Positions 14,435 through 59,793 of a stretch of DNA of 64,000 nt are shown in pieces; the stretch's first letter is position 1, and each line of letters begins with the position of its first letter. Both the position numbers and the translations under genes were made by a program. The DNA lies in contig NZ_KB890603.1 in NCBI RefSeq assembly GCF_000373145.1, forward strand, positions 124,001-188,000, written 5' to 3'. This DNA is from Thermus oshimai DSM 12092. GTDB lineage: Bacteria; Deinococcota; Deinococci; Deinococcales; Thermaceae. The notes beneath the pieces are model-generated. The model had not been told where the DNA came from and searched no databases. It saw only the letters and a list, made by a program, of their open reading frames with translations.

Positions 14435-15745
14435 TTGACCCACGAGGCGGTCTGGCAACACGTCCTGGAGCACATCCGCCGCAACATCACCGAGGTGGAG
14501 TTCCACACCTGGTTTGAACGGATCCGCCCCCTGGGGATCCACGAAGGGGTGCTGGAACTCGCCGTGCCCACCTCCTTCGCCCTGGACTGGATCCGCCGCC
14601 ACTACGCGGGCCTCATCCAGGAGGCCCTGGCCCTCCTGGGGGCCCAGGCCCCCCGGTTTGAGCTCCGGGTGGTCCCCAGCACCCCCGTGCAGGAGGACAT
14701 CTTCCAGGCCCAAAAGCCCGAGGTCCCCCAGCCCAAGCTGAACCCCAAGTACACCTTCGAGAACTTCGTGGTGGGGCCCAACAACTCCATGGCCCACGCG
14801 GCCGCGGTGGCCGTGGCCGAATCCCCGGGGCGGGCCTACAACCCCCTGTTCATCTACGGGGGGGTGGGCCTGGGGAAGACCCACCTCATGCACGCGGTGG
14901 GCCACTCCGTGGCCAAGCGCTTTCCCCACCTGAAGATCGAGTACGTGTCCACGGAGACCTTCACCAACGAGCTCATCAACGCCATCCGGGAGGACCGGAT
15001 GACGGAGTTCCGGGAGCGCTACCGGTCCGTGGACCTGCTCCTGGTGGACGACATCCAGTTCATCGCGGGCAAGGAGCGCACCCAGGAGGAGTTCTTCCAC
15101 ACCTTCAACGCCCTCTACGAGGCCCACAAGCAGATCATCCTCTCCTCCGACCGCCCCCCCAAGGACATCCTGACCCTGGAGGCCCGGCTCCGGAGCCGCT
15201 TTGAGTGGGGCCTCATCACCGACATCCAGCCCCCCGACCTGGAGACCCGCATCGCCATCCTGAAGATGAACGCGGAGCAGCGGGGGCTGCGGATTGGGGA
15301 GGATGTCCTGGAGTACATCGCCCGCCAGGTGACCTCCAACATCCGCGAGCTGGAAGGGGCCCTCATGCGCACCATCGCCTACGCCTCCCTAAACGGGGTG
15401 GAGCTCACCCGGGCCGTGGCCGCCAAGGCCCTTTCCGACATCTTCGCCCCCCGGGAGGTGGAGGTGGACCCCTTGGAGATCGTGCGCAAGGTGGCGGAGC
15501 GCTTCGCCCTAAAGCCCGAGGAGCTCACGGGCAGCGGCCGCCGCAAGGAGGTGGTCCTCCCCCGGCAGGTGGCCATGTACCTGGTGCGGGAGCTCACCCG
15601 GGCCTCCCTCCCCGAGATCGGCCAGCTCTTCGGGGGGCGGGACCACACCACGGTGCTGTACGCCATCCAGAAGGTGCAGGAGCTCTCCGAAAGCGACCGG
15701 GAAGTCCAGGCCCTCCTCCGGAACCTCAAGGAGGAGCTCCTATGA
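14435..15745 (+). CDS. dnaA: Chromosomal replication initiator DnaA
   Basis: AAA+ initiator (436 aa) that binds DnaA boxes and melts oriC. Domain I (about 1-85) starts with [19 protein letters not shown]. Walker A is [15 protein letters not shown], Walker B is LLLVDDIQF, and domain IV ends with the DnaA signature [16 protein letters not shown] chose the TTG at 14435, preceded by GGGAGGGAGGG, because it matches the known Thermus N-terminus; the upstream open frame is antisense to mnmG. The oriC boxes begin five bases after the stop. Confidence 0.96.
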
Positions 15746-15749
15746 CCCC

Positions 15750-15967
15750 TGTGGATAACCTGTGGATAACCCTGTGGATAACTGGGCTTGGCCTGTGGAT
15801 AACCCTGTGGATAACCTGTGGAAAACCCGGGGGGGTCTGGGGGCTGTGGATAACTGGCCGGTTTTCCACACGTTATCCACAGGGAAGCGGGGGTTATCCA
15901 CAGGGGTTATCCACAAGCCCTTTGCCGTCTGGGAGCAGGTTTTCCCCCCGTTATCCACATATCCACA
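15750..15967. repeat. Thirteen DnaA boxes in mirrored orientation
   Basis: Seven boxes read TGTGGATAA on the plus strand at 15750, 15761, 15773, 15794, 15806, 15817 (variant TGTGGAAAA) and 15845. Six read on the minus strand at 15862 (variant TTTTCCACA), 15873, 15894, 15907, 15951 and 15959 (variant ATATCCACA). Orientation flips once, near 15857, so the array is a large head-to-head arrangement. Confidence 0.95.
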
Positions 15968-15971
15968 GGCC

Positions 15972-15986
15972 CTACTACTACGACTA
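15972..15986 (+). promoter_or_regulatory. DnaA-trio element
   Basis: After the last box (ends 15967) and a GGCC spacer come the triplets CTA CTA CTA CGA CTA. The complementary strand therefore reads 3'-GAT repeats, the pattern described for DnaA-trios in Bacillus subtilis, which bind DnaA as it loads on single-stranded DNA. The spacing (box, short GC spacer, trios, then AT-rich DNA) matches that model. Confidence 0.8.
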
Positions 15987-16022
15987 CGGGTTTTTAAGAT
16001 CTTTAAAAAGAAAAACCCGTAG
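15984..16022. repeat. AT-rich inverted repeat at the putative unwinding element
   Basis: The 12-base arm CTACGGGTTTTT (15984-15995) is repeated inverted as AAAAACCCGTAG (16011-16022). The 15 bases between are A/T-rich and themselves nearly palindromic around AGATCT (15998-16003). It could assist strand opening, act as a dnaA terminator, or both. Confidence 0.8.
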
Positions 16023-16046
16023 TAACAGTAAAGGAGGCAAGGAAGA

Positions 16047-19873
<3,827 letters not shown>

Positions 19874-58998: not shown

Positions 58999-59793
58999 TT
59001 ACTGGCCCATCAGCTGGGCCACGGTGGGTTGGGCCTCGAGCCAAGCGGCGAAGGCCTCGGGGGGTTCTACCTGGACCTGGCCCACCATTCGGGAATGCCC
59101 GAGGCCGCAGTATTCAGCGCAGAGGACCTGGAAGGAACCCGGCCTCGTGGGGGTGAACCAGATCCGGGTCACCATCCCGGGGACGGCGTCCATCTTTACC
59201 CGGAACTCGGGGACGTAGAAGTTATGGATCGCATCGTTGGCCCTTAAAAGGAGGAGGACGGGCTGGTTCAGGGGAAGGTGGAGGGGGCCTCCGAGGACCA
59301 CCACGTCGTCCAAGGCTGCCGGATCCCTGGGATCTACACCGAAGGGGTTGGCGGGGGAAGCCAAACGAGCCTCCCCCCGGCCCAGGCGCCCGTCGGGGCC
59401 GGGGTACCGGTAGGCCCAGATCCACTGCTGGCCCAGGACCTCTACCTGGAGGGCGGACCTAGGTGGAGCCACCAGCTGGGCGTAGTAGTAGAGCCCCGGG
59501 GCGAGGAGGAGGACGATGCCCAGGGTGGTGAGGGTGATAAGGCCGCCCTCGAGGCGGCGATCGTCCGTAAGGTAGGCCGCTCGGCCTGGGGCACGTTGGG
59601 CGAGAACGTAGGCCAAGAAGAGGTTGATTCCCAGGTAGGCCAGGCCGGTTACGGCGAGGGAAAAGACGATAAGCCTGTCCAAGGCGCCCCAGTTGGAGGC
59701 TAGGGGGGTGAACCACCAGGGCCGAAAAAGGGCTAGCCCCATGGCCGCCAACACCATGAGGACGAGGGCCAAAGCCAAGGCCAACTTGTGCAT
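58999..59793 (-). CDS. Cytochrome c oxidase subunit II (second oxidase, no heme c)
   Basis: A 264-residue subunit with three hydrophobic segments (about 3-22, 41-65 and 87-106) and a periplasmic CuA domain. The CuA ligands Cys225, Cys229, His233 and Met236 are in CAEYCGLGHSRM, with an earlier HNFYVPEF. There is no fused cytochrome c. ATG 59793 follows AAGGGAGGG. It is the first gene of the leftward operon. Confidence 0.93.
   Translation of the reverse strand: MHKLALALALVLMVLAAMGLALFRPWWFTPLASNWGALDRLIVFSLAVTGLAYLGINLFLAYVLAQRAPGRAAYLTDDRRLEGGLITLTTLGIVLLLAPGLYYYAQLVAPPRSALQVEVLGQQWIWAYRYPGPDGRLGRGEARLASPANPFGVDPRDPAALDDVVVLGGPLHLPLNQPVLLLLRANDAIHNFYVPEFRVKMDAVPGMVTRIWFTPTRPGSFQVLCAEYCGLGHSRMVGQVQVEPPEAFAAWLEAQPTVAQLMGQ

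Follow-up and report, generated by a model that had tools for sequence, protein, structure and literature searches.

The DNA considered here, from Thermus oshimai, forms the core of its chromosomal origin (oriC) and was analysed as part of a segment of 64 kb (the window). The genes for the initiator DnaA and the sliding clamp DnaN are separated by a gap of 301 bp (Table 1), in which a box scan finds 13 DnaA boxes, seven reversed followed by six direct. With one mismatch allowed, the 64-kb window contains 31 DnaA boxes against 6.5 expected; one such box, TTATCCCCA at 16105-16113, lies within the start of dnaN. The GC fraction is 0.40 at 15950-16049 and about 0.70 in the flanks, and CGGGTTTTTAAGATCTTTAAAAAG follows directly after the left of two trio arrays, that is, 3' of 15986 on the + strand.

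Table 1. Features of the dnaA-dnaN region of T. oshimai, in window coordinates
Feature	Position	Strand	Remarks
dnaA, initiator	14435..15745	+	TTG start; Pfam Bac_DnaA, Bac_DnaA_C, DnaA_N; PF00308 E 1.2e-74
Seven reverse DnaA boxes	15750..15853	-	TGTGGATAA / TGTGGAAAA on the + strand; exact TTWTCCACA matches
Six direct DnaA boxes	15862..15967	+	last two are the platform beside the trios; pair kept across the genus
Second-last direct DnaA box	15951-15959	+	TTATCCACA
Last direct DnaA box	15959-15967	+	ATATCCACA; overlaps TTATCCACA
GGCC spacer	15968..15971	.	GGCC or GCCC in relatives
Left DnaA-trio array	15972..15986	-	+ strand CTA CTA CTA CGA CTA; order as in the BUS of PMC8287927
Perfect 13-bp inverted repeat	15983-15995 / 16011-16023		ACTACGGGTTTTT / AAAAACCCGTAGT; spans the core; peculiar to T. 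oshimai
A/T-rich core, presumed unwinding element	15987..16019	.	edges GC-containing; most of the 13-bp inverted-repeat arms inside
Right (mirror) trio array	16020..16031	+	top strand 5'-TAG-TAA-CAG-TAA-3'; faces the left array across the A/T core
dnaN Shine-Dalgarno AGGAGG	16032..16037	+	immediately 3' of the right array
dnaN, sliding clamp	16047-17171	+	Pfam PF00712, PF02767, PF02768

In the basal unwinding system (BUS), DnaA bound to its boxes is guided onto DnaA-trios and stretches the strand that carries them (PMC8287927). Such systems have been predicted in 1755 of 2070 origins (85%) (Pelliciari 2021, PMC8287927), and unwinding by the DnaA of Deinococcus radiodurans in vitro depends on both DnaA boxes and trios (PMC8287927). 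Because the BUS is predicted so widely and works for D. radiodurans, we regard the left array as a further case of the known kind; judging by its layout, it is an ordinary BUS. The order of last box, GGCC, trios and A/T-rich DNA at oriC, proposed in a preliminary description of this DNA, is borne out at 15951-15986, between dnaA and dnaN. The site has the clustered DnaA boxes of an oriC (the 13 in the gap), and the array runs CTA CTA CTA, then CGA CTA, starting 4 bp from the last box. It accordingly offers at least three consecutive trios no more than 16 bp from a box, with the 3' end of their strand meeting that box. The strand presumed to be bound is the bottom one, 5'-TAG-TCG-TAG-TAG-TAG-3'. 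The string CTACTACTAC, with at most one mismatch, matches 8 times in the 64 kb, where 0.45 would be expected; of these matches, three are register-shifted copies at the left array, and another exact copy is found at 59482.

The comparison of the DNA upstream of dnaN covered all 27 Thermus genomes together with over 60 others from the order. Conservation goes far past what chance would give: the block of two boxes, GC spacer and trios is almost letter-identical in 27 of the 27 Thermus genomes, and the same sequences occur in Thermus arciformis, T. tenuipuniceus, T. composti and other named Thermus; TTATCCACAtATCCACAG(G/C)CCCTACTACTAC hardly varies within Thermus and is present in most genomes of the order's other families. 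The left array is thus conserved in related origins, in the whole genus and most of the order. The preliminary description named a lack of triplet conservation in related origins as grounds for refuting its Bacillus subtilis-type reading; the triplets are in fact conserved, both within Thermus and through the order, and the reading is further supported by order, spacing and strand. Its view of the locus as a clear instance in Deinococcus-Thermus holds in that the instance is real, but it is not the first in the phylum, the D. radiodurans BUS having been tested before (PMC8287927). The trio units it listed also form a genuine array, except that the fourth, CGA (15981-15983; 3'-GCT-5' on the bound strand, where it reads TCG), is without the central A of a trio. 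Most Thermus genomes have CGA or CGG at this unit, Meiothermus-like relatives mostly CTA, and the CTA repeats of the left array are more regular in the rest of the Thermaceae than in Thermus; possibly, filament growth is stopped or tuned at the odd unit. In a single family of the order (L072-L090), the left array is shortened to CTACTA followed by TATATAG or GGGAG, and the trio element of this family may work differently.

The interval originally described, 15959-16010, covers the left array and ends just short of a second one on the opposite strand. We searched for trios of the set reported for B. subtilis and Helicobacter pylori (TAG, TAA, AAG and CAG); the right array is the only run of at least four of these on either strand of the 64-kb window, and its NAN triplets are in phase and all of known types. 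Among Thermus species the starts of the two arrays are 41-54 nt apart, and the right one differs by whole triplets (TAG-AAG-CAG-TAA, TAG-TAG-TAG-CAG-TAA, TAG-TAA-TAG-CAG-TAG). With near-duplicates removed by clustering at 85% and the remainder treated as independent, a treatment under which shared ancestry still inflates the statistics, the mean longest trio run in 19 Thermus representatives is 3.89, compared with 1.63 in the reverse orientation and 1.91 in dinucleotide shuffles (the observed value is reached by 0 of 400). The run is only 2 in 5 of the 27 Thermus genomes, and short or degenerate in some relatives. In 18 other Thermaceae, the mean is 2.17 versus 1.22 for the control and 1.64 for shuffles (0/400 for the mean), and the count of runs of at least 3 is matched by 17 of 400 shuffles. 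For 32 other members of the order, the corresponding means are 1.50, 1.28 and 1.32 (15/400); the signal outside the Thermaceae is weak, with most other families near chance. At the level of 5-mers, AGTAG is the top word at +30 to +65 from the left array in the other Thermaceae (12/18; 2.4 expected, maximum of 7 in 300 shuffles), and TAGTA in the remaining families (8/32; 1.5 expected, maximum of 5). The sequence, strand, spacing and conservation of the facing arrays can be read directly from these genomes.

In Thermus, the right array abuts the Shine-Dalgarno sequence of dnaN and there is no DnaA box beside it. Both features would be expected if only the left array, as an ordinary BUS, were functional and the TAG repeats on the right were retained for the expression of dnaN, as part of its leader or promoter. 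This explanation appears unlikely to us. With the Shine-Dalgarno sequence and the leading As masked, the signal persists, the mean run in Thermus still being 3.47 versus 1.89 (0/300 shuffles). The distance between the right and left arrays is about 35-54 nt, while that to dnaN spans 63 to 940 bp: in the other Thermaceae, AGTAG is enriched near the left array although dnaN is 70-940 bp away, and several Meiothermus-like genomes have 140-940 bp between the BUS and dnaN, yet AGTAG, where present, keeps within 35-47 nt of the left array. Moreover, the array recurs in origins of other phyla, some of them beside dnaG or other genes. As a sole cause, the dnaN leader is rejected; the spacing tracks the left array, not dnaN.

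Because shared ancestry inflates the tests within the order, other phyla were sampled. When 84,980 species genomes were scanned for a left BUS followed by TAGTARNAG within 17-47 nt, 31 loci were returned, namely 7 in Thermus, about a dozen in Acidobacteriota, 8 in cyanobacteria and singles elsewhere. Given that such a pattern scan selects for its own result, we also made even random draws by phylum that required the left BUS alone, setting aside the centre genomes as well as matches outside origins. Runs of at least 3 were present in 6 of 9 Cyanobacteria, 3 of 7 Acidobacteriota and 4 of 6 Chloroflexota, and in 0 of 22 on the control strand; in these three draws the mirror array also surpasses shuffles. 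Several of the relatives from other phyla were checked and adjoin dnaA and/or dnaN. The mirror array was absent from the random draw made in the phylum of the Bacillota MAG G113 (L103), 0/9; over all four phylum draws, the control strand gave 0/31 with runs of at least 3. Together, these comparisons lend the facing array good support. Among viral contigs, none with the double pattern was found. L147 and L165 were left out as apparently not origins, and the matches L154-L162, all from the Acidobacteriota genome G317, were rejected as origins: they are nine copies of a BUS-like string within one shared repeated sequence, mostly near contig ends, which is probably a mobile element.

In the Thermaceae, a search on the right side of the mirror array gave no DnaA-box-like site, the best match being equal to that in shuffles. 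For this reason, we call the Thermus right array trio-like and not a second full BUS, and the missing box is the main weakness of the mirror-array reading; occupation of trios in B. subtilis has been reported to require a nearby box, which counts against a boxless array. An adjacent box in the matching orientation is present elsewhere. Four Thermogemmatispora-type Chloroflexota (L175-L178) carry what we term a twin BUS, in which each side has a box pair, a GC spacer and trios, in the layout TTATCCACA-TTTCCACA-GGCC-CTATTACTACTGCTA ... TAACAGTAGTAG-GGGC-TGTGGAAA-TGTGGATAA; a fifth candidate (L109/L132) has the same layout as far as the box, at the contig end. These loci adjoin dnaG, within a stretch with about 20 further DnaA boxes. 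Only one small group has the twin BUS: four exact matches and one cut contig among 47 members of the class, in mutually similar genomes. In the Bacillota MAG L131, TAG-TAA-TAG-TAA is followed by a GC stretch and TGTGGATAA, between dnaA and dnaN. Boxes at BUS spacing behind a mirror array are the strongest argument that it would be a true DnaA-trio element. The four twin-BUS loci also contain, at about 1500-1600 in BUS orientation, an inner inverted repeat, ATATCCATC / GATGGATAT, inside the core.

The same boxes bear on the idea that some other protein than DnaA, such as a DnaD-like or DciA-related loader factor, binds the right array as a single strand, by analogy with the DnaD recognition element. 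In B. subtilis, DnaD reads the strand opposite the trios (PMC10201434), and DciA occurs in Thermus-Deinococcus and Cyanobacteria (PMC5109545). However, the units of the right array match DnaA-trios both as triplets and in their 5'-3' sense, and the mirror triplets of the twin BUS adjoin DnaA boxes at BUS spacing; we rate such a protein site as distinctly improbable.

It is very doubtful that the two sides are principally an inverted repeat for a hairpin or cruciform, extruded in the melted core or serving as a terminator or leader hairpin, with their trio likeness secondary: the perfect 13-bp repeat of T. oshimai (DNA fold z = -4.7) and the paired T-to-A changes in both box arms of the twin BUS between L177 and L176 would fit, but the case is strong in the window species only, with fold z about 0 in most non-Thermus Thermaceae and no covariation within Thermus or the other Thermaceae. 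Pairing is not kept by compensatory change, the complementarity of a genome's own left and right sides being no better than that between genomes (permutation p 0.11-0.81), and what is conserved is the triplet run and its strand, not the pairing. The perfect repeat is, from this comparison, best described as a species-level feature superimposed on mirrored triplets.

We favor a reading in which DnaA acts at both ends of the core. DnaA on the two direct boxes (15951-15967) would be led across GGCC onto the bottom-strand trios (15972-15986) and would stretch this strand so that the A/T core melts, as in the standard BUS mechanism; once the core is open, DnaA would engage the top-strand mirror array (16020-16031) as well. 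With no box behind the Thermus right array, DnaA would have to come from the box cluster, and the array would thus be reached without an adjacent box, presumably by DnaA delivered from the 13 boxes, while in Thermogemmatispora-type origins the mirror array would be served by its own box pair. Each DnaA filament would hold one strand and recruit one helicase into the core, yielding two helicases that point apart. We infer binding of DnaA to the right array, opening of the core and loading of the helicases from this arrangement, and consider it somewhat probable that DnaA docks on both strands of the melted core as a means of symmetric loading of two helicases without DnaD. The preliminary description had the origin opening in one direction, toward dnaN. 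This is incomplete, given that a facing trio array bounds the dnaN side of the core on the other strand, which suggests an opened zone with two ends. The chances seem to us about even that a double-ended module, with facing arrays of trios on opposite strands, converging DnaA filaments and one helicase for each, is common in bacteria without DnaD; the twin BUS of the Thermogemmatispora type would be its complete form, and Thermus, many cyanobacteria and some Acidobacteriota would have the second array without boxes.

Several characterized origins resemble parts of this arrangement. The B. subtilis BUS (boxes 6/7 and trios, PMC8287927) shares with the left side in Thermus the tandem boxes, short GC spacer, bottom-strand trios, A/T-rich DNA and location between dnaA and dnaN; however, it is described as having one trio array on one strand and DnaD reading the other, whereas in Thermus a second, facing array closes the far end. 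The BUS of D. radiodurans, a member of the same phylum, likewise needs boxes and trios for strand separation, and the tests covered the cognate boxes and trios only (PMC8287927). The trios of H. pylori, TAG-TAA-CAG-TAG (PMC10316083), differ by a single letter from TAG-TAA-CAG-TAA of Thermus, but are the ordinary DUE trio set of that origin, not a second array that faces another. In Thermotoga maritima, the DUE eTrio TAG-TAG-TAG is a trio block away from the box-proximal trios and is bound by cluster-held DnaA (PMC10316083); by analogy, it might serve as a model for how the boxless Thermus right array is reached. For the B. subtilis DRE, a role in organising how the second helicase is loaded, on the strand across from the trios, has been proposed (PMC10201434). 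This element is bound by DnaD and lies opposite the trios themselves, whereas the Thermus right array lies beyond the A/T core.

The oppositely directed loading of two helicases at one origin has been stated to be unsolved, and recent work explicitly poses the question of how the second helicase is loaded in bacteria without DnaD (PMC10721633, PMC10201434). One answer could come from a concrete sequence element, namely another trio array on the other strand. If the reading is correct, the annotation of origins would shift from a one-directional to a symmetric module in several phyla. As far as we have found, the right mirror array has not been described previously: the literature searched for trios on both strands, inverted or mirrored, does not report a facing array, and an earlier mention is possible in the 2016 origin paper or in supplementary tables, which were outside the search.

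Some of the genomes of the order have further peculiarities around dnaN. In the Meiothermus-like L035, L038, L042, L043 and L050, dnaN lies 290-940 bp off the BUS with a promoter-like TGTTAGAAT ahead of it, an arrangement that, on its sequence, separates the origin from dnaN expression in these genomes. In L028 (genome G014), a small contig carries a second dnaN-like gene that is divergent (47% identity), and several genomes of the order have additional genes of this type.
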